DNA from: Pirellulales bacterium
GTDB lineage: Bacteria > Planctomycetota > Planctomycetia > Pirellulales > DATAWG01
Reading direction: 5' to 3'
Assembly (NCBI GenBank): GCA_035939775.1
Contig: DASZFO010000201.1
Span: 1-33,184, forward strand
DNA length: 33,184 nucleotides
Part shown: piece after piece, positions 14,395 to 26,522 of the stretch
Layout of the letters: each line of letters starts with the position of its first letter
How positions within the stretch are numbered: the stretch's first letter is position 1
The notes under the pieces: generated by a model
The model's input: the letters and a program-made list of their open reading frames with translations, nothing else
Databases searched by the model: none
Told to the model about the DNA's origin: nothing
Program-made: the position numbers and the translations under genes

Positions 14395-14681
14395 CTGATT
14401 CGCAACGAGGTGCGTTGGCCGTGTTGGCCGAGGTGTGCGACTTGTCGCCGGATGTTCGGCTCGGGCAATTATTCGCTCACGTCGGGTTTTTGGCGGAATG
14501 CACGATCGGCAAGGGACTCGGTTATATCGACGACGATGAACTCGTTGCGGTGCTATACCGTCACAAAGCAGAACTCGTCGCGCGGTTGCAAGGCACACCG
14601 AACGACGTGCTTTCGCCGATATCCGTCTCCGGCAGTCCGATGCTTCCCGAGACTACTCAAGCGACCGAGCGTCGCAGTTAA
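14391..14681 (+). CDS. small hypothetical protein coupled to the ParB-like gene
   Basis: Not recognised by name. The 96-residue product is acidic and helical (LAEVCDLSPDVRLGQLFAH, then GLGYIDDDELVAVLYRHKAE), with a less ordered C-terminal tail of ~25 residues. It starts within the stop codon of the ParB-like gene, so the two are translated together. Its end overlaps the convergent oppF-like gene by four bases. The pair probably acts together; the function is not known. Confidence 0.72.
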   Translation: MTDSQRGALAVLAEVCDLSPDVRLGQLFAHVGFLAECTIGKGLGYIDDDELVAVLYRHKAELVARLQGTPNDVLSPISVSGSPMLPETTQATERRS

Positions 14682-15766
14682 CGCCCGTTGGCTGTTCCCT
14701 TGGGACTGTCAGCAACAGTCGGCGTCGCGCCCCGTTCGGCAATCTGATCGCGGATCGATTGGCTCAAGATGATTGGGTCGCTGTTGCCGCTCGCCAGTTC
14801 TATCTCGACCGCATGGCAGCGGACTTTGTGCCCGACGAAGTCGAGTTCCTTCGGTTCCATCGTGCGGCAGATATCCATCGCCAGCGGGCAGCGCGGGTGG
14901 AACCGGCAGCCGGAAGGCGGATTGATCGGACTGGGCACATCCCCTTCCAACAGAATCCGCTTTCGCGTGCGGGTTGGGTCCATCGTGGGGACCGACGAGA
15001 GGAGCGCGTGCGTGTAAGGGTGCAGCGGATGGCGATAAAGATCGAGGCTCTTGCCCGTTTCGACGATCTCGCCCAAGTACATCACCGCCACGCGGTCCGA
15101 GATGTATTCCACGACCGACAGATCGTGCGAAATGAAGAGATAAGTGAGTCGGAACTTATCGCGCAGCTCGACGAGCAGATTGATGATCTGCGACTGGATC
15201 GAGACATCGAGCGCCGAGATCGGCTCGTCGAGCACCATGAATCGCGGCCGCAGGGCCAGCGCCCGGGCGATCCCGATTCGCTGTCGCTGTCCGCCGGAGA
15301 ATTCGTGCGGGTAGCGATTCAGATAACGCGGATCGAGGCCGACCTGCTCGAGCGTCTCGCGCACCTTGGCGAGCCGCTCTGGTTTATTGCCCAGGCCGTG
15401 GATGATCAGCCCCTCTTCGACGATCCCTTGCACGGTCATCCGCGGATTGAGCGAGCCGAACGGGTCTTGGAAGACGATCTGCAAATCCTGCCGCAGCTCG
15501 CGGAGCGCATTGCCGCGGACCTCGGTCACGTCGCGCCCCTCGTAGAGAATCCTTCCGGCGGTCGGCTCCAACAGCCGCAACAGCGTGCGCCCGGCGGTTG
15601 TCTTCCCGCAGCCCGTCTCGCCGACCAGCCCAAGCGTTTCTCCTTCCGCAATCTGAAACGAAACATCATCCACCGCGCGCACGAATCCCACCGTCCGCGA
15701 GAACAATCCCCGCCGCACTGGAAAAAACTGCTTCAGGTTACGGACTTCAATGAGCGGCTGATTCAC
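14678..15766 (-). CDS. oppF: oligopeptide/dipeptide ABC transporter ATPase, OppF/DppF type
   Basis: This 362-residue ATPase is the second of two nucleotide-binding subunits of the peptide importer encoded upstream. Walker A is GETGCGKT (49-56), the Q-loop region is [15 protein letters not shown], the signature FSGGQ (156-160), and Walker B FMVLDE (176-181). The C-terminal oligopeptide/dipeptide domain has the usual cysteine pattern ([16 protein letters not shown], then RCH) found in Opp/Dpp ATPases. A ~35-residue tail after that is extra. Start is GTG 15766, whose GTGA overlaps the stop of the GxxExxY remnant; the family N-terminus ([13 protein letters not shown]) begins right there. It is last in the operon. 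Confidence 0.94.
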
Positions 15767-15952: not shown

Positions 15953-16963
15953 TCATTCATATCTCGCGTTTACGAAGTCGAGTTCTCCCGCGAAGTGGCA
16001 GCGGGCGAAGTGGCCGGGGGCGATCTCGCGCAGCGCCGGCTCATCGGCCGTGCATTGCGGCTCCTTCTTGAACGGGCATCGCGGATGGAATTTGCAGCCC
16101 GAGGGAAAATGCAGCGGGCTGGGGACCATGCCCTTGATCGTGCTGAGCCGCTCGCTCTTCGGCTTCCCGGGCTCGGGACGCGATTGAAACAGCCCGGCCG
16201 TGTACGGATGCAGCGGCCGGGTGAATAGCTCGCGGACCGGAGCATATTCAACGACCTTCGAGGCATACATCACGGCCACGTCGTCGGCCATCTCGGCCAC
16301 GATCCCCAGATCGTGCGTGATGATCAGGATCGACATGCCCAGTTCACTTTGCAACTGCCGGAGCAGATCGAGAATCTGGGCTTGGATCGTCACGTCGAGG
16401 GCGGTGGTCGGCTCGTCGGCGATGAGCAGGCTCGGCCGGCAAGAGAGAGCCATGGCGATCATCACCCGCTGCCGCATCCCGCCCGACATCTGGTGCGGAT
16501 ACTCATCCACCCGCCGCTCGGCCACCGGAATCCGCACTTTGCGAAGCAGCTCGATCGTGCGATGGCGAGCCTCCGCCTTGCCGACCCGCTGATGGAGCCG
16601 GATCGCCTCTCCGATCTGCTGCCCGATGGTGAAGACCGGGTTGAGCGAAGTCATCGGCTCCTGAAAGATCATGGAAATCCGCGCCCCACGAATGCGGCGC
16701 ATCGCCGGCTCAGGCAATTCATTGAGCGTGACCGTCTTGCCGTTGTCGTACATCGTGATTCGCCCGCCGGCGATTCGGCCCGGCGCAGAAATCAATCGAA
16801 TGATCGACAGTGCCGTGACCGATTTGCCGCAGCCGCTTTCTCCGACCAGACCGAGCGTCTTGCCGCGCGGGATGGCAAGCGAGACGTCATCGACCGCCTT
16901 GACCACACCTTCGTCGGTGTAGAAGTAGGTCTTGAGGTTCTGGATGTCGAGGAGAGGAGGCAA
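15953..16963 (-). CDS. oppD: oligopeptide/dipeptide ABC transporter ATPase, OppD/DppD type
   Basis: This 336-residue ATPase pairs with the OppF-type subunit to drive peptide uptake. Walker A is GESGCGKS (41-48), the signature MSGGMRQRV follows at about residue 156, Walker B is [12 protein letters not shown], and the C-terminal peptide-transporter domain carries [17 protein letters not shown]. Length is normal. The only start that keeps the family N-terminus ([11 protein letters not shown]) is TTG 16963; no ATG or GTG is close enough. A G-rich direct repeat ends eight bases upstream and may have replaced the original leader. The spacer to the upstream oppC gene is 90 bases, longer than the other junctions of the operon. 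The family call is firm; the exact start is less so. Confidence 0.93.
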
Positions 16964-17053: not shown

Positions 17054-18358
17054 TCAAATTCGTAGCCGCGGGTCCATGGCGTCGCGCAGGCCGGTGCCGA
17101 TGAGGTTAAACGTGGTGACGGTGATGAAAATGGCGACCGATGGCACGACGACGAGCCACCAGTTTTGATAGTTGTCGTGGGCGATGTTCAAAAGGCCTCC
17201 CCAGCTCGGCGCTGGTGGCCGCACGCCGAAGCCGAGCAAGCTCAGGCCCGCCTCGGTAATAATTGCCCCAGCAATCCCAAACGGAATCGACACCAGCACT
17301 GGAGACAGGGAATTCTTAAGGATGTGTCGAAACAAGATGCGCGTATGCGATGCGCCGAGCGCTTGGGCCGCTAGAGTGTAATCCAGTGAGCGTTGCTTGA
17401 GAACTTCGCCGCGAACCAGTCGGGCGACGCCGGTCCAGCCCGTGCCTCCAAGCACGGCCATGATCACGAAGATGCCTTGGCCGACCAGCGCCACGATCGT
17501 CAGAATCAGAAAAAATGTCGGAAACAGAAGCACGATTTCAATGATTCGCGAGATCACCATATCGATCACGCCGCCGAAGTATCCGGCCAGAGACCCGACG
17601 ATTACTCCAATCACGATGTAAATGCTTACCGTGACGAGGCCGACCGTCATCGAAATCCGCGTGCCGTAGATCATGCGCGCTAGCACGTCTTGCCCCGTGT
17701 CGACTGTTCCCAGCAGGTGCGCATAGGCTTGGTTGGACTTGGTCATTTCCTTTTCGTCGACGCGAAATCCGGGGGGTTGGAATCGCGAAGGCGTGTCTTG
17801 CTCCGTGGGGCCGAAGGGCACGAGCGCAAAGGCGCCGTAGTTCGCGCCATGCGATTTGAACTGTTCTTCCGGAAAATCGCGCGAGGCATAAGAATTTTCC
17901 GGCCCGACGCCTGGAATCGAAAACACAACGATCAGCGCCGCCAGAATCGCCAGGAATTCAACCGCGAAAAGTCCCAATCTGCGCCGGCCAGGAATCCCTT
18001 GCGACCTGGACCAATAGCTCGTGAATAGGGCGAGACCACCCCAAGGCACCAATCCAACGAGCGCCATGTTGAAGAAGAAATCGACTGGCTCCTCGGGATG
18101 AAACAGCCATTGAAACCAAGGGTAGATCGTCTCGCTGCCCTCGTGAAACACGAAGGGCACATTCGAGGCCAACAGCGGCGCGAAGATGGCGATCAGGAAC
18201 AGCCCAACCATCAACCAGAGCGAGAAGTAGGCCGGGCGATTCTTCTTGAATTGCCGCCAGACGATATCGAGATAGGCGTCGCCATCGTGAGGCGATAATG
18301 CAACAGGCGTATCGCTTGCCGGTGCTGCCGCAGTCACGATGTCCGGTTCGACGCTCAT
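17054..18358 (-). CDS. oppC: oligopeptide ABC transporter permease, OppC type, with inserted membrane segment
   Basis: One of two membrane subunits of the peptide importer. Start is ATG 18358, four bases into the oppB stop (ATGA overlap) and preceded by GGGGGAAGG; a longer frame reaching back 50 codons inside oppB is not credible. The 434-residue product has a first helix (FSLWLMVGLFLIAIFAPLLA), then after an extra ~150 residues the standard permease core beginning HLLGTVDTGQDVLARMIYG (the usual 'HpLGTDxxGRDvlsR') and the EAA loop region (AAQALGASHTRILFRHIL). Ordinary OppC proteins are ~300 residues. The added section contains two further predicted helices (FFFNMALVGLVPWGGLALF and VEFLAILAALIVVFSIPGV) and a soluble stretch. 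The parallel insertion in OppB suggests the two additions contact each other. Confidence 0.92.
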   Translation of the reverse strand: MSVEPDIVTAAAPASDTPVALSPHDGDAYLDIVWRQFKKNRPAYFSLWLMVGLFLIAIFAPLLASNVPFVFHEGSETIYPWFQWLFHPEEPVDFFFNMALVGLVPWGGLALFTSYWSRSQGIPGRRRLGLFAVEFLAILAALIVVFSIPGVGPENSYASRDFPEEQFKSHGANYGAFALVPFGPTEQDTPSRFQPPGFRVDEKEMTKSNQAYAHLLGTVDTGQDVLARMIYGTRISMTVGLVTVSIYIVIGVIVGSLAGYFGGVIDMVISRIIEIVLLFPTFFLILTIVALVGQGIFVIMAVLGGTGWTGVARLVRGEVLKQRSLDYTLAAQALGASHTRILFRHILKNSLSPVLVSIPFGIAGAIITEAGLSLLGFGVRPPAPSWGGLLNIAHDNYQNWWLVVVPSVAIFITVTTFNLIGTGLRDAMDPRLRI

Positions 18359-20184
18359 GCTGCCTTCCCCCGCCCAGCGAAGCTGATCCGCGGATCGACA
18401 AGAACATACAAGATGTCGGTGATCAGGAAGCTCACGAGTGTCACGATCGCCTCGACGTACAAGAGGGCCATCTGCGTCGGAAAATCCTTTTGCAGAATGG
18501 AACTCCAACCGAGCCGTCCCAAGCCAGGAATGTCGAACAAATACTCGATCAAAACAGCGCCCCCGAGCATCGCCGGCAAGAAGCTTGAGAATAGCGTGAG
18601 GATTGGTATCAGCCCGTTTCGCAGGGCATGCTTGAGAATCACCTTGTGTTCAGGCAACCCTTTTGCCCGAGCGGTGCGGATATAATCCTGGTTAATGACG
18701 TCCAGGATGCTCGAGCGCGAATACATCGCGATCGCCGCCAACGAAAACAAAGACAAGCAAACGACCGGCAGAAAGGCATGCCAGAGGTAATCACTCAAAT
18801 ACGCCAGGAAGGGCAAGTTCTGGGCTTCGTCCGAGTGCAGGCCTAGCATTGGAAACCATTTGAAGTAATCCCCATAACAAAAGAAGACGAGAAACAGCAT
18901 TCCCGCGACAAACCCCGGTATTGAATAGAGTAGAAACAACCCGAGCGAAATGCTCCGATCGGTCCAGCCGTTGCGAAACACGCCGCATAGGATTCCCAAG
19001 GGCACGGCGACGATGTAGATCAGCAATTCCGAGATGAAGATCAGCGGTGCGGACACGAGGAACGCCTGCCAGATCAGGCCGCTCACCGGTTCGCGAGTCC
19101 GCAGGGCCGAGCGGCCGAAGTTGAAAGTCACCAGCCGAACGATCATGTGGCCGTACTGCGTGTCGGAGACGATGTACCAGATTTTGGCCAAGCCGCTTGG
19201 TTCGTATTCAGCCTGGTGAATCTGGTAGTATTCGAGCCAGTCGGCGGCGGCTTCATCGACGTCGGCCGCCGCCGCGTCAGTTGGGACGTCGAGCCTGAGC
19301 GGTTCGGCAAACATGCGCTTCAAAAAAACCGACGCGACGAACTTTTCCTCCAAGGGTGTCGCCTCGTCCAACAGTTTCTCGGCGAAGAATCGCGGTGCCA
19401 CGTCGGCATAGTCGCCGTTGACGATCTCCTCGAGGCCCGGATCGACCTTGTCGCGCGCGGCTGACATCTCCTTCAACTTGGCGTCCAAGTATTTCCGCGC
19501 TTCGGCATCAACCTGCGGCAAGCTGGCCTTGCGACGCTCCCACCAGAGCCGCCAGGCGCCAGTGACGGCGGGGGTCTCCGCCTCGCTCGGATGGATCGAA
19601 TAGGTGAACACGAACGGATCGACGACCATCGCATTGAGACATCGAATCGCACCGATTTTGAGCTTCGCGTCCGACTTGGGATCGCGCACGATGTCGACTG
19701 CGGCGGGCACCGCGTTCTGCCCCCGATCTTCGCAAAAAACGAGCGTGAAATAGTCGATCGACTTGGCTAACAATTCCCAGCGCTCGGGGTCCTTCAGTCG
19801 ATCCTCGAACTCGGGAATTCCGAGTGATCGCAAATAAGCCAGTTTTTCTCCGGTCTGCGGCTCATTGGGATTCTTGGCCAATTCCGGTAATTCACTCTGA
19901 ATCTCGGCCACCGTTCGCGCCCGATAGTAAGCCGCCCAATGAACGGCAGTCGAATAATCCTTGAAGTAGCGGAAGTTAAGGACGTACGGCTTATCGAGGT
20001 AAAGGTCGCGCTTTTGAATCAAGTAGGCCTCGCGTGTGCCCGTCGATTGCCCCGCCGCGCCGCCGCTGAGTTGAGCCAGCAGCGGATCGCCCGGCGCCAA
20101 CTGCATGATGCAAAACGAGACCACCGTGACGCCGAACAGCGTCGGGATCATGATCAGCAGCCGGCGGAGGATGTACGTCAGCAT
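18355..20184 (-). CDS. oppB: oligopeptide ABC transporter permease, OppB type, with ~265-residue inserted domain
   Basis: The other membrane subunit of the importer. Start is ATG 20184 (MLTYILRRLLIMIPTLFGV), the family N-terminus; upstream in-frame codons are repeat DNA. The first helix and LAPGDP are followed by LDKPYVLNFRYFKDY, where a normal OppB (~310 residues) continues within a few residues to 'GdfG.S'. Here ~265 residues intervene (about 80-345) before FNFGRSALRTREPVSGLIW and the five remaining helices with the EAA loop (TARAKGLPEHKVILKHALRN). The insert is soluble and mostly helical, with two stretches resembling HEAT-type repeats (AVPAAVDIVRDPKSDAKLKI and FFAEKLLDEATPLEEKFVAS). By topology it should lie outside the cytoplasmic membrane, near the binding protein. 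Total length is 609 residues. Confidence 0.92.
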   Translation of the reverse strand: MLTYILRRLLIMIPTLFGVTVVSFCIMQLAPGDPLLAQLSGGAAGQSTGTREAYLIQKRDLYLDKPYVLNFRYFKDYSTAVHWAAYYRARTVAEIQSELPELAKNPNEPQTGEKLAYLRSLGIPEFEDRLKDPERWELLAKSIDYFTLVFCEDRGQNAVPAAVDIVRDPKSDAKLKIGAIRCLNAMVVDPFVFTYSIHPSEAETPAVTGAWRLWWERRKASLPQVDAEARKYLDAKLKEMSAARDKVDPGLEEIVNGDYADVAPRFFAEKLLDEATPLEEKFVASVFLKRMFAEPLRLDVPTDAAAADVDEAAADWLEYYQIHQAEYEPSGLAKIWYIVSDTQYGHMIVRLVTFNFGRSALRTREPVSGLIWQAFLVSAPLIFISELLIYIVAVPLGILCGVFRNGWTDRSISLGLFLLYSIPGFVAGMLFLVFFCYGDYFKWFPMLGLHSDEAQNLPFLAYLSDYLWHAFLPVVCLSLFSLAAIAMYSRSSILDVINQDYIRTARAKGLPEHKVILKHALRNGLIPILTLFSSFLPAMLGGAVLIEYLFDIPGLGRLGWSSILQKDFPTQMALLYVEAIVTLVSFLITDILYVLVDPRISFAGRGKAA

Positions 20185-20310: not shown

Positions 20311-22149
20311 TTAGGGCCCAAGCACGCGCGGTGTTTTGGCGTACCACTCGCGCGTGTCGACGCAAGGGCGGATCGGGTAGAACTTCACATTCTCGATCCG
20401 CGCGTTATAGCCGGCCGTCTCCAGGTCCATGAACAAGAACGTGTAGGGCTGATCTTCGTAGATCAGGCGATGAATCTTGTGGTAGATTTCGATCTGCTTG
20501 TCAGGGCTCATCGTCACTCGCAATTGCTCGATCAGCTTGTCCACTTCGGGATTCTGGTAGCCGATGGAATTCGAGCTTTCCGGCAAATCGGCTTGGCTGC
20601 CGTGCCAGATTTGAAATGGATCATCCTTCCAATCCATAACCCAGCCTAGAATGCAGGCGTCGAAGTCTTTCTTGCGCAGCTTCTGCAGCATCAGCGCCCA
20701 ATTGGTTGACGAAATCCCGACGTCCACTCCGATCTTGCGACAATTCTCCTTGACGATCGTGGCTATGCTCGTGTAGCTGGGACTATCCGAGTAGATCATC
20801 AAATCGAACTTGGCCTCCACCTTCTTGCCGTTGACCATCTTGCTACGGAGAGAAGCGCCCTCTTCCATTTTCCAGCCCGCCTCGTCCAATAGTTTCCGCG
20901 CCTTGTCGAGATCGTAGTCGATCAACGGCAATGATTTGTCGTTGGACTTGCTGTCAGGGAGGAAAGGGCCTGTCAACCGAACGGCCAAGCCGTGATAGAT
21001 ATTGGCAATAATCTCGTCCAATGGGATGGCGTGGCCGATCGCCCAGCGGACCTTCTGGTCCTTGAAAAAGTCACGCTTCAGGTTGTAACCCAAATAACGA
21101 TACGAGGGGTACTTGAGTTTCGCAAGAATGACTTTCTTCGCCTCCACATTGGGATGCGATTGGCTTTGAAGGTACAGATCTTTCTCCGGGATTGGGTTCC
21201 AGTCCAGCTCACCTTGGAGCATCTGCTGTACAGCCGTGTTGGGGTTCTTAATATGACGATAGATCAGGCGGCTAAAGTAGTATGGCTCTCCCCAGTAATC
21301 GGGGTTGCGCTCCAAGACGAGCCGCTGCTCCTTGGTCCATTCCTTGAACATCATCGGCCCAGTGCCGCACATCGCCCGATTCGCCCAATGGTTGTTGAAG
21401 CCATCGGCGAATTCCTTGGACGAGAAATCGAACGAGATCGGGTCTCCCTTTTCGTCCACCGAGAAGACGTGCCGCGGCATGATGAAGACACGAAGGGTGA
21501 AATCGTCCGCCAAGAAATACGGCTTCGTCCACTTGACCTTTACCGTGTACTTATCGCCGCGCACCAAGGAGACCTTGATCTTATACCGTTCCGACTCTTG
21601 CTTGGCCGACGGATCCTCGTAGTAGCTCCGCAAATGAGCAGCTTCGATATTCTTGTTGAGGATGCAATCGAAAGTGAACTTTACGTCGCGAGCAGTGAAT
21701 TCCGTCGCCGGAAGTTTCTTGCCGCTGGGCAGCGTGATCGGATGCCACTTCACTCCTTTGCGGAGATGAATCGTATATTCAAGCGTCTTCGGATCGAACT
21801 CCCAGGATTCCGCCAACGCCGGTTCCCATTCGTCCGGATTGTCGTACTTGCGGTCGGCCAAGTAGTCGTAGACTAACCGTTGAAACGCCTCGCTTACGTT
21901 GTCGTTGGCGGTGAGTGGGTTCACCGTGTCCGGATCGTCGGCATAGGAGAGCAGTAGCGTATCGGAGGCCGCCGGCGGTTTGCCACCGCGAGTAATTCCC
22001 GGAGTGATGACCCGTTTGACAGGGACCGCCGCTTGCGGCTCGTCGGACGATGAATCTGCCGTCGCATCGTTCGCCCCGCGGACGTGACCAATGGCGATGA
22101 CGACTCCCGCAGTCAAAATCGAACCGATCAACCAACGGCGGAGATTCAT
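20311..22149 (-). CDS. oppA: peptide ABC transporter substrate-binding protein, OppA/DppA type
   Basis: This extracytoplasmic protein captures the peptide or similar ligand and delivers it to the OppB/OppC permease. ATG 22149 is preferred to a GTG three codons upstream. The N-terminus is a signal sequence (NLRRWLIGSILTAGVVIAI, then GHVRGA) without a lipoprotein cysteine, so the protein is probably free or attached in another way. The SBP_bac_5 fold is clear: LSYADDPDTVNPL (about 65-77), then WEPALAESWEFD, YTIHLRKGVKWHP and FTARDVKFTFDCILN, with GTGPMMFKEW and ILGWVMDWKDDPF later. At 612 residues it is somewhat longer than E. coli OppA (~540). It is first in the operon; the ligand is unknown. 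Confidence 0.94.
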   Translation of the reverse strand: MNLRRWLIGSILTAGVVIAIGHVRGANDATADSSSDEPQAAVPVKRVITPGITRGGKPPAASDTLLLSYADDPDTVNPLTANDNVSEAFQRLVYDYLADRKYDNPDEWEPALAESWEFDPKTLEYTIHLRKGVKWHPITLPSGKKLPATEFTARDVKFTFDCILNKNIEAAHLRSYYEDPSAKQESERYKIKVSLVRGDKYTVKVKWTKPYFLADDFTLRVFIMPRHVFSVDEKGDPISFDFSSKEFADGFNNHWANRAMCGTGPMMFKEWTKEQRLVLERNPDYWGEPYYFSRLIYRHIKNPNTAVQQMLQGELDWNPIPEKDLYLQSQSHPNVEAKKVILAKLKYPSYRYLGYNLKRDFFKDQKVRWAIGHAIPLDEIIANIYHGLAVRLTGPFLPDSKSNDKSLPLIDYDLDKARKLLDEAGWKMEEGASLRSKMVNGKKVEAKFDLMIYSDSPSYTSIATIVKENCRKIGVDVGISSTNWALMLQKLRKKDFDACILGWVMDWKDDPFQIWHGSQADLPESSNSIGYQNPEVDKLIEQLRVTMSPDKQIEIYHKIHRLIYEDQPYTFLFMDLETAGYNARIENVKFYPIRPCVDTREWYAKTPRVLGP

Positions 22150-22387
22150 ATTGGTCACTTAATGAGTTTGAGGCCGGCGACCCGTGGCTCGCCGAATGCT
22201 GATCGGATCGATCGAGCGCGGACTCCAAAATCTAGTACGGAAAGAGGCCGTCGCGGGTCCAAAACCTCGGATTCGTCCGACAGGCAAGCGTGTGGCAACT
22301 GGATGCTATGCAATGCTTTGGGTCTCGTCAAGCAGCAGTCGCGAGGGTTGGGCTCGACGAGTTGCCGATTGAATTGGTAGCGTGGCC

Positions 22388-22548: not shown

Positions 22549-22592
22549 AAACGCGGCGTCTAGCCGCGTTTTTGACAGCGGCGAGACGCCGC
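22549..22592 (+). promoter_or_regulatory. two mutually exclusive stems upstream of the heme protein gene
   Basis: AAACGCGGC (22549-22557) pairs with GCCGCGTTT (22563-22571), followed by T residues, which looks like an intrinsic terminator. GCGGCGTCT (22553-22561) can instead pair with AGACGCCGC (22584-22592), and the two stems share bases so only one can form. This is the arrangement of an attenuator, 33 bases before the ATG. It could equally be a degenerate palindromic repeat. Confidence 0.45.
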
Positions 22593-22625
22593 TTCTACTT
22601 TCTCGCACTCGCGCAGGAGGGATCC

Positions 22626-25600
22626 ATGCGAGCATTCGGCTTCGCGGCGGCTCGGGCGGCGATGATTGCCGCGGTACTGTTCGGCCTTGGATCGGTCGCC
22701 CGGCGACCTCTCGGACTCTCAGCGGCCTCTGGCCAAGAGCCCCAATGGATTTGGTCCCCGGCCGTTGAAGGCCAGAAACCGGCCGGCGGAACATGCTATT
22801 TCCGCCGCAGCTTCGACATGGCCCAGCCCGAGATCGGCGAGGTGCAAGTCGCCGCCGACGAGTCGTATGAACTCTATGTGAACGGCCACAAGGCGGGCGA
22901 GGGGAAAAACTGGCGCGTGATGGACATTCACGACATCACGAAGTATCTCGTCACCGGCCGCAACGCCGTGGGCATCAAGGTCACCAAGAGCGGTAGTGGT
23001 TCGGCCGGACTCGCCGCCCGAGTGCTCGTCAAAAGCGCCGGCGACACATACGTCGGCTATTTCACCAACGACAAATGGAAATCGAGCCAGAAGGAATTCC
23101 AGCAATGGACCCTGGTGCGATTCAACGACTCGCAATGGCTCGCCGCCCATGTGATCGGGCAACTTGGCGTCGCGAAGCCGTGGCTCGATGAAGTGCAGAT
23201 GGCGGGCGGCAGCGTTTCGGGGCGATTCAACATCTCGAAGGAATTTCGCGTCGAGCCGGTTGCCGATCCGCAGGAGACTGGCTCGCTGCTGACAATGGCG
23301 TTTAACGAGTTCGGCGAAATCCTCGCCTCTCGCGAAGGTGGCCCGTTGCTCTTGCTCCGCGCCGCCAAGAAAGACGGCCTGCCGAACAAAGCCTCGATTT
23401 ATTGCGATCGCGTCACGAACATTCAAGGCATTCTGCCCCTCAACGGGCAAGTATTCGTCGTCGGCGCCGGGCCGGATGGGACCGGGCTATACCGAATTTC
23501 GGACGCGGACGACAAGACGGACGATGCCAAAGCCGAGCCCGACGACAAACTCACGGACGGCAAGCAAACTGATTCAAAACCGGCGCCCGGCAAACACGTT
23601 GAGCTGTTGATCAAGTTCGCGGGCGAGATGAGCGAGCATGGCCCACACGTGCCGATTCTTGGTCCCGACGGTTTGATTTACGTGTTGATCGGTGACCACA
23701 CGACGCCAGTGAAGCCGGAAGACGCGAACAGCCCGCACCATCATTACTACGAAGGGGACCTGATCACTCCGCGCTACGAAGATCCGAACGGCTACGGCGT
23801 CGGCGTCAAGGCGCCTGGCGGGAGAATCCTCCGCACCGACACCACCGGCAGTGTGGTCGAAATCTTCGCCGGGGGCTTCCGTAATCCGTACGGATTCACC
23901 TTCAATCGCGGCGGCGAACTCTTCACCGACGATTCCGACATGGAATGGGACGTCGGTCTCCCCTGGTATCGACCGACGCGTGTGCTACACGTCGTCCCCG
24001 GCGGCGAATATGGCTGGCGGAGCGGCTGGGCGGTTTGGCCGAGCTATTTCTTCGATAGCCTGCCTTCGATTCTCGATACGGGGCGTGGCTCGCCGACTGG
24101 GATGGTCACCTACGATCACGTCATGTTCCCGCGGCGGTTTCACGATTCGCTGTTCATCGGCGATTGGGCGAAGGGGCGGATTCTCAACGTCCGGCTCAAG
24201 CCCGCTGGCGCGAGCTACGCCGCCACGACGAGCGTGTTTCTCGAAGGTAAGCCGCTCAATGTCACCGGATTGGCAGTCGGACCGGACGGCTGGCTCTATT
24301 TCTGCACCGGCGGCCGCGGCACCGAGGGTGGCGTCTACCGGGTCGTCTGGAACGGCACGGTGCCGGCGGAAATGACCAAATTCGGCGACGGCGTCGAGGG
24401 GGCGATTCGTCAGCCGCAGCTCGACAGCGCCTGGACCCGCCAGCGGATCGCCACGATCAAGCAGCAACTCGGCGACAAATGGGACAAGCAGATCGCCGCG
24501 ATCGCCGAGAATCCGAAGATAGCCGTCGAATCGCGGTTGCGAGCGCTGGAGTTGATGCAACTGGTCGGGCCGTTCCCGTCGCAGGCCGAATTGATGCGGC
24601 TATCGCGCGACACCGACGTTCAAATCCGCGCTAAGATCGCTTATTTAATGGGGCTGCATTCCGACGAAAGCACCGAAACCCGCTTGATCGAACTCTTGCA
24701 CGACGCCGATGCGCTCGTCGAGCGAATGGCGTGCGAGGCGCTCGTCCGAGCCGGGCACAAGGCGACTTGGAAGCAGCTTGCGCCGCTCTTGAAATCAAAT
24801 GATCGCTACGTCGTCTGGGCGGCGACTCGGGCGCTCGAGCAAGTGCCTAAGGAGAGTTGGCAGGAACAGGCGCTCAAGGCCGAGAATCCGCGGCAATTCT
24901 TGCAAGGAGCGCTCGCGCTGCTGGTTGTCGATCCCGATCGGAAGGCTGCCGAAGCGATTCTCACACGGGTCGATGCGCTATTGGCCGGCTATCTTAGCGA
25001 CCCCGACTTCCTGGATTTGCTACGCGTAACCGAGCTGGCGCTGGAGCGCGGCAAGGTCGCCGGCGACGACGTGCCCGAGCTGCGCAAGAAGCTGGCCAAG
25101 GAATATCCATCCAACGACCGCATCCAAAACCGCGAATTGATCCGGCTGCTGGCCTACCTGAACGATAACGGAGCGGCCCGGCGGATGATCCAACAGTTGC
25201 AAGCGGACGCGCCGCTGGAGGAAAAGCTCCACTTAGCCCTCTATGCCCGATTCATCCCCGATTGGACGACGAAACAAAAGCTCGCGCTGTTGAAGTTCTA
25301 CGAATCGGCCCGCGACGGCGTCGGCGGCCATAGCTTCAGCGGCTATATCGAGAATGCCGCGCGCGATCTGTTCGCCGGCTTGAACGAAGACGAGCGAGCG
25401 CAAGTGCTGGCCGAGGGGACGAAATGGCCGAGTTCCGCGCTTTCCGTGCTGGCAAAACTGCCCGACAATCCGGGGGCGGAGACCTTGGCTCAGCTTCAAG
25501 CGCTCGACCGGCAGCTTGTCGGAATGGACGGCGAACCGGCGCGCAAGCTGGGGATCGGCATCGTCGCCGTGCTCGGGCATAGCGGCGATTCGCAGGCGAT

Positions 25601-26522
25601 GGCTTATTTGCGCGATACCTATGAAAAGGATCCGGATCGCCGCGGCTATATCGCCATGGCCTTGGCCGAGCATCCCGAGGGAGAGAATTGGCCGATCCTG
25701 ATCCGATCGCTGCCGATCGTGGACGGCTCGTTCGCGCAGCAGGTGCTCGTCAAGTTGGCGACGGTGGATCAGGCGCCGGACTCGCCGGAGCCGTATCGCC
25801 AGGTGATTCTGCGCGGCTTGAAATTGCAGGAGAACGGCGGACCGCTCGCCGTTGCGCTGTTGGAGAAATGGGTCGGCAAGAAGATGGGCGAGCCCGACGC
25901 GAAGTGGGACGCATCCCTGGCGGCATGGCAGAAATGGTTTACGGAGACCTATCCCGACCAGCCCGAGGCCAAGCTGCCCGAGGATTCCGCGAGCAATCGC
26001 TGGACGTACGACGAGCTGTTTAGCTTCCTCAATTCGAAAGAGGCGGCCAAAGGAAGCGCACAGCGCGGGGCCGCCGTGTTTACCAAGGCCCAGTGCATCA
26101 AGTGCCATCGGTTCGGCGAACGCGGCGAGGGAGTTGGACCGGACCTAACGACCGTCAGCCGCCGCTTTCAAAAGAAAGAAATCCTCGAATCGATCCTCTA
26201 TCCATCGCAGGTGATCTCGGATCAATACGCCAGCAAGTCGGTGCTGCGAACGGACGGCCGGACGGAGTGGGGCATCGTCGCCCCGCAAGCCGATGGCTCC
26301 GTCATCGTGCTGCAATCCGACGCCACGAAGGTCCGCATCCCGAAGGACGAAATCGACACGATCACTCCGATCAAGAAATCGGCGATGCCCGAGGGGCTGC
26401 TCAATCCGCTCTCACTGGAAGAGATCGCTGATCTGTTCACGTATCTCAATCAATCGCCGGAGCCGCAGGTGAGCCAAGGGCGAGGAGGCAGCGGGCAGGA
26501 AGCAGGAGGCAGGAGGCAGTAG
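22626..26522 (+). CDS. PVC-type secreted cytochrome c protein with beta-propeller and HEAT repeats
   Basis: A 1298-residue exported protein starting at ATG 22626 with AGGAGG six bases upstream. An N-terminal signal or anchor (about residues 5-35) is followed by a galactose-binding-like domain (about 38-210, WIWSPAVEGQKPAGGTCYF, then YELYVNGHKAGEG), a glucose/sorbosone-dehydrogenase-like beta-propeller (about 230-590, with GPHVPILGPDGLIYVLIGDH and GFRNPYGFTFNRGGELFTDD), a long HEAT-like helical region (about 630-1090), and a C-terminal heme domain with CIKCH (1157-1161) and a later SAMPEGL supplying the probable axial Met. This order is typical of the planctomycete membrane-bound dehydrogenase family. 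It probably oxidises a sugar or alcohol in the periplasm and passes electrons on; the substrate is unknown. The last ~12 residues are encoded by GGCAGGAGG-type repeats. Confidence 0.92.
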   Translation: MRAFGFAAARAAMIAAVLFGLGSVARRPLGLSAASGQEPQWIWSPAVEGQKPAGGTCYFRRSFDMAQPEIGEVQVAADESYELYVNGHKAGEGKNWRVMDIHDITKYLVTGRNAVGIKVTKSGSGSAGLAARVLVKSAGDTYVGYFTNDKWKSSQKEFQQWTLVRFNDSQWLAAHVIGQLGVAKPWLDEVQMAGGSVSGRFNISKEFRVEPVADPQETGSLLTMAFNEFGEILASREGGPLLLLRAAKKDGLPNKASIYCDRVTNIQGILPLNGQVFVVGAGPDGTGLYRISDADDKTDDAKAEPDDKLTDGKQTDSKPAPGKHVELLIKFAGEMSEHGPHVPILGPDGLIYVLIGDHTTPVKPEDANSPHHHYYEGDLITPRYEDPNGYGVGVKAPGGRILRTDTTGSVVEIFAGGFRNPYGFTFNRGGELFTDDSDMEWDVGLPWYRPTRVLHVVPGGEYGWRSGWAVWPSYFFDSLPSILDTGRGSPTGMVTYDHVMFPRRFHDSLFIGDWAKGRILNVRLKPAGASYAATTSVFLEGKPLNVTGLAVGPDGWLYFCTGGRGTEGGVYRVVWNGTVPAEMTKFGDGVEGAIRQPQLDSAWTRQRIATIKQQLGDKWDKQIAAIAENPKIAVESRLRALELMQLVGPFPSQAELMRLSRDTDVQIRAKIAYLMGLHSDESTETRLIELLHDADALVERMACEALVRAGHKATWKQLAPLLKSNDRYVVWAATRALEQVPKESWQEQALKAENPRQFLQGALALLVVDPDRKAAEAILTRVDALLAGYLSDPDFLDLLRVTELALERGKVAGDDVPELRKKLAKEYPSNDRIQNRELIRLLAYLNDNGAARRMIQQLQADAPLEEKLHLALYARFIPDWTTKQKLALLKFYESARDGVGGHSFSGYIENAARDLFAGLNEDERAQVLAEGTKWPSSALSVLAKLPDNPGAETLAQLQALDRQLVGMDGEPARKLGIGIVAVLGHSGDSQAMAYLRDTYEKDPDRRGYIAMALAEHPEGENWPILIRSLPIVDGSFAQQVLVKLATVDQAPDSPEPYRQVILRGLKLQENGGPLAVALLEKWVGKKMGEPDAKWDASLAAWQKWFTETYPDQPEAKLPEDSASNRWTYDELFSFLNSKEAAKGSAQRGAAVFTKAQCIKCHRFGERGEGVGPDLTTVSRRFQKKEILESILYPSQVISDQYASKSVLRTDGRTEWGIVAPQADGSVIVLQSDATKVRIPKDEIDTITPIKKSAMPEGLLNPLSLEEIADLFTYLNQSPEPQVSQGRGGSGQEAGGRRQ
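26481..26522. repeat. GGAGGCAG micro-repeats forming the 3' end of the heme protein gene
   Basis: Repeated GGAGGCAG/GGGCAGGA units cover the last ~40 bases of the gene, giving the tail GRGGSGQEAGGRRQ and the stop codon. The residues before them (LFTYLNQSPEP) are the natural end of this family. Confidence 0.65.

Follow-up and report, generated by a model that had tools for sequence, protein, structure and literature searches.

Type I peptide importers are regarded as having a minimal periplasmic face, formed by a short scoop. The solved DppB and OppB permeases of Escherichia coli and Mycobacterium tuberculosis (8z1v, 8z21, 8wd9, and 8j5q) are 306 to 339 amino acids long and have no domain between helix alpha3 and TM2. 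The scoop motif of E. coli DppB (residues 32 to 62) links TM1 with the short alpha3 helix; it lies in the periplasm and occupies the cleft of the binding protein DppA (PMC12136057). A folded periplasmic structure is found in MalF, a permease of the type I maltose importer whose P2 loop has been described as a rigid body that moves around the binding protein MalE (PMC8134467).

Here we analyzed the window, the whole stretch of 33,184 nucleotides of Pirellulales DNA, which encodes an OppB almost twice the length of these permeases. The window OppB shares TM1, the scoop region, the six-TM core, and the RTA coupling loop with the E. coli and M. tuberculosis proteins, which are its best sequence and fold matches and have similar operon partners. 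It differs from them in carrying an all-alpha domain of 265 residues between alpha3 and TM2. The data presented below establish this insert as genuine and conserved, a previously undescribed domain within a familiar type of transporter; our search of the open-access literature found no description of such OppB inserts.

A peptide importer operon with an enlarged OppB

The window contains a complete oppABCDF operon, with all five genes on the minus strand. The genes are oppA (20311 to 22158), assigned by Pfam to solute-binding protein family 5; oppB (18355 to 20184); oppC (17054 to 18358); and the ATPase genes oppD (15953 to 16963) and oppF (14678 to 15766), whose products are both of the oligo_HPY type. 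The operon encodes a peptide-type ABC importer. The stop codon of oppB and the start codon of oppC overlap as ATGA at positions 18355 to 18358, which suggests that translation of the two genes may be coupled.

The oppB reading frame is open throughout from its ATG and translates to 609 amino acids. The permease core (PF00528) is recognized at residues 393 to 601 (18382 to 19008, minus strand) with 141 bits against a cut-off of 26.4 (E value, 4e-41), and the solved DppB/OppB relatives align to residues ~342 to 602. At the other end, BPD_transp_1_N matches residues 1 to 74 (model positions 1 to 68 of 114) with 16.0 bits, under its cut-off of 23.8, and the match stops where the insert starts. The NCBIfam OppB models likewise cover both ends of the protein and pass over residues ~75 to 341. 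None of the NCBIfam OppB subfamilies (Opp1B to Opp4B, YejB, and NikB) reaches its curated cut-off, the best being Opp4B with 232 bits against 450. The second-best match, to YejB of the YejB/YejE microcin C permeases (2.5e-63), lies in the C-terminal core; it is far under the family cut-off, and the YejB model, at a length of 364, is without such a domain. We assigned the window protein to the OppB/DppB permeases (BPD_transp_1) by its PF00528 core together with its operon partners. These observations bear out the preliminary description of an OppB-type permease with a domain of ~265 residues between helix 1 and the core, with the insert at residues ~76 to 340, and they show that the standard models for OppB leave a portion of insert-bearing proteins uncovered.

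Fold and repeat structure of the insert

The insert occupies residues 76 to 340 (19165 to 19959, minus strand). When its two halves were compared as profiles with hhalign, residues ~148 to 221 matched residues ~253 to 326 with a probability of 86% (P = 5e-6). Unit 1 (19522 to 19743) and unit 2 (19207 to 19428), both on the minus strand, each finish in an aromatic-rich helix, with AWRLWW near the end of the first and DWLEYY near the end of the second. By this profile match, the insert is an internal duplication that holds two diverged copies of a single unit. AlphaFold2 modeled the insert alone with high confidence (pLDDT, 91.9; pTM, 0.85), with helices throughout. In the model of full-length OppB, the insert was again confident and the membrane core was poor, so that this model says nothing on the placement of the insert relative to the membrane part.

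The preliminary description had called the domain HEAT-like and had held that no named domain was known at this position. The second claim withstood Pfam, profile-to-structure, and Foldseek searches: the window insert matched no Pfam family at a meaningful E value and no solved structure in the profile search, and Foldseek with the insert model found nothing significant in the PDB (best E value, 0.31) or in a viral fold library (best, 1.6). The first claim fared less well. The insert shares with the HEAT families an alpha-helical repeated unit, and a HEAT-type pattern can be seen by eye in its short relatives; yet no HEAT profile matched the window insert or two close relatives at an E value of ≤10 in Pfam, and relatives gave only sub-threshold matches (HEAT, 0.1; HEAT_ULK4, 0.19). 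The PDB neighbors found by Foldseek were alpha-solenoids, including deoxyhypusine hydroxylase and ARMC8, whose weak matches (E ≥ 0.3) were insignificant. Because neither a HEAT profile nor a HEAT fold was matched, we refer to an alpha repeat domain, which is HEAT-like by appearance only.

No second copy of the insert was found elsewhere in the window's genome. A neighboring open reading frame of 1,316 codons (22572 to 26522) has HEAT_2 and cytochrome c matches, with glycosyl hydrolase and GSDH matches under threshold; its product was ruled out as a relative of the insert by profile comparison (probability, 0.8%). In a Thermoguttaceae-like group of relatives (L036, L037, and L040), the insert contains a proline-rich, low-complexity stretch.

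Spread of the insert and insertions at the same site across Planctomycetota

The full-length protein was present in 5 of 58 genomes sampled, a set made up of the window's own genome and its relatives; besides the window's own, the carriers were four genomes from three further genera and two further families, and three families of the order thus carry the insert. Identity among the full-length carriers was 30 to 51% in the insert and 63 to 87% in the core. When about 85,000 species genomes were scanned with two short peptide patterns, a method of limited reach, 15 loci with the insert were returned, every one of them a planctomycete record. A profile search detected the insert in 16 of 397 genomes of the order (11 of 253 among good genomes), and a search with the single sequence detected it in 2 of 392 genomes of the phylum. 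Counted in this way, as had been suggested, the insert is clearly not the ordinary form of all planctomycete OppB proteins: most other genomes of the order that have an OppB encode a protein of ~330 amino acids in which LDKP is directly joined to GDLGRS. Outside the phylum, a control on plasmids yielded 3,527 records with OppB homologues, of which none covered 80% of the query; the best match spans query residues 1 to 602 in 1,029 bp and is consequently insert-free. Across 16 proteins, 25 positions of the insert are at least 90% conserved, including W211, W215, W316, P295, and L296. A chimeric reading frame or an assembly error was ruled out by the conservation of the insert across many genomes.

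In a tree of 129 OppB cores, from which the inserts were excluded, the window-type proteins formed one clade of 19 (support, 100), and 25 ordinary OppB proteins of the order formed a separate clade (support, 100) on a long branch. The window protein thus represents a distinct lineage; the idea that it is the usual OppB of the order with a domain added is unsupported by this tree.

We examined the best 148 OppB hits in 392 genomes of the phylum, which were picked by similarity to the window core and are no census. Inserts of more than 100 residues were found in 55, 90 had none, and 3 could not be resolved. The alpha-type inserts vary from a single unit to several. In profile comparison, the short ones match the insert of the window OppB (probability, 93%; E value, 2.7e-7), and the match of the long insert of the L073 group is less firm (60%). 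Other relatives carry different domains in the same TM1-TM2 loop. A WD40 propeller occurs in L082, L087, L106, L117, and L124, which were grouped by similarity; the inserts of the two run against Pfam, L082 and L124, were both over the WD40 cut-off, and the WD40-type proteins form one clade (support, 99). L118 has a PKD domain over the cut-off together with further beta-rich sequence, and L148 has a biotinyl/lipoyl-like stretch just over the Pfam cut-off. Unclassified inserts of ~140 to 190 residues, several of them alpha or beta, occupy the same site in L099, L109 to L111, L114, L116, L119, L120, L127, L128, and L139; in L115 and L136; in L130, L133, L137, L145, and L155; and in L135 and L143. 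Insert presence takes nine changes on the tree, with gains and losses indistinguishable, and the starred branches require at least four changes for the no-insert label. The domains at the OppB site are non-homologous and were therefore separately acquired. A quick tree had detached the L073/L094 group, but two origins of the alpha-type insert are unneeded: constraining all alpha-type rows to one clade (L156 excluded) was not rejected (p-AU, 0.66), and the alpha-type insert may therefore have a single ancient origin. By these sequence comparisons, the TM1-TM2 loop of OppB in Planctomycetota is a domain-insertion hot spot, of which the window insert is one instance. A phylum that repeatedly adds whole domains, some of recognizable kinds, to the periplasmic face of an importer offers a natural series on the docking of binding proteins, release, and specificity, with OppB inserts as deletable, swappable modules.

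Such a pattern might also arise by non-adaptive accretion, in a loop that tolerates insertions of domains that barely affect transport, and both the many unrelated kinds of insert at one site and the commonness of insert-free forms are consistent with this. We nevertheless regard accretion as unlikely. Decay would be expected if the domain were neutral, yet the window-type insert is full-length throughout the 19-member clade, no broken copy was seen among the window-type inserts, and its 25 near-invariant positions include three tryptophans.

Topology, the OppC hairpin, and a possible role of the insert

TM1 of the window OppB spans residues 9 to 29 by hydropathy (20098 to 20160, minus strand), with R7 and R8 on its N-terminal side. 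Residues 33 to 75 (19960 to 20088, minus strand), ending LDKPYVLNFRYFK, are by position and conservation the equivalent of the DppB scoop motif and alpha3, and the insert is placed between TM1/scoop/alpha3 and TM2. The scoop/alpha3 region is more conserved than the insert (mean top-residue fraction, 0.78 versus 0.55), and because the scoop is retained and conserved, the insert supplements rather than replaces it. The charges of the protein fit an N-in topology, with R7 and R8 ahead of TM1, no K or R in residues 30 to 50, and seven K/R in the coupling loop. The TM1-TM2 loop is periplasmic in the solved DppB (PMC12136057). By homology to that E. coli structure, we infer that the insert is periplasmic, in agreement with its earlier placement in the extracytoplasmic loop after the first helix.

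The permease partner OppC is also modified. Between TM1 and the core, it has an extra TM hairpin, with hydrophobic segments at residues 95 to 113 and 131 to 149 (17915 to 18079, minus strand; hydropathy), which the ordinary OppC of the order lacks. The hairpin was present at the alpha-insert loci examined (L157 to L162 and, by hydropathy, L169 to L172) and absent beside the ordinary, WD40, and PKD OppB proteins examined (L163 to L168 and L173 to L175). Since the segments in L170 and L172 are less regularly spaced, only one of the two segments in L159 passes the hydropathy threshold, and the OppC of L162 is broken in its contig, the co-occurrence of insert and hairpin is a strong tendency and not a proven rule.

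From the position of the insert, contact with the binding protein or filtering of substrates is plausible. The likeliest reading, with a probability that we place close to even, is that the insert is a periplasmic docking and guard module beside the scoop that would engage OppA, analogous to the P2 loop of MalF. It would stand beside the scoop, just past the scoop motif and helix alpha3; it would grip OppA on docking; and it would help to retain OppA or keep the released peptide inside the cavity. We infer the OppA contact and the guard role because the operon is complete from oppA to oppF, because the scoop and alpha3 are conserved and the charges fit an N-in topology, because the insert is predicted to fold on its own, and because the OppC hairpin accompanies the alpha-insert loci. 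PKD domains are usually extracellular, and the presence of one at the same site in L118 points in the same direction. Two published observations further favor a docking module, namely that in DppB both the TM1-TM2 region and the scoop lie in the periplasm and make contact with the binding protein (PMC12136057) and that the P2 loop of MalF moves around MalE (PMC8134467). The P2 loop differs in belonging to another loop of another permease family, and a sequence relation is not expected. However, transporters of the same family function without the insert, which counts against a docking and guard role. The distances of insert and OppA correlated weakly beyond the core (partial r = 0.25, P = 0.08, n = 13), and no more strongly than pairs without the insert.

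Extending the docking reading to the phylum, it is possible, with a probability somewhat below one-half, that the loop serves as a recurrent docking port. At least four non-homologous domains (alpha repeat, WD40, PKD, and biotinyl/lipoyl-like) would then lie beside the scoop, each rewiring the importer's contact with its binding protein or with a partner in the envelope, and the alpha version would pair with a matching extra TM hairpin in OppC.

The presence of several non-homologous kinds of domain at one site is also consistent with recruitment of a partner other than OppA, such as an envelope scaffold, a further receptor, or a peptidase in the periplasm, in which case differing domains would be differing adaptors. 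Repeat and propeller domains are typically protein-binding scaffolds, and the insert is conserved less than the core, both of which favor recruitment; the operon loci were scanned for opp genes only. We consider such a role rather unlikely. The position of the insert beside the cavity entrance could also allow it to filter or bind peptides itself before they are handed over and in this way to shape the substrate range, and alpha-repeat domains are often peptide binders. The insert showed no similarity to peptide-binding domains in the profile and Foldseek searches, however, and we regard an effect on substrate range as highly improbable.

Inspected by eye, the window OppA (20311 to 22158) has no Cys of the lipoprotein type after its hydrophobic stretch. 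The OppA proteins of the relatives L158, L033, L038, L035, L161, L043, and L160 have a lipoprotein-like start, with a Cys following the hydrophobic stretch.
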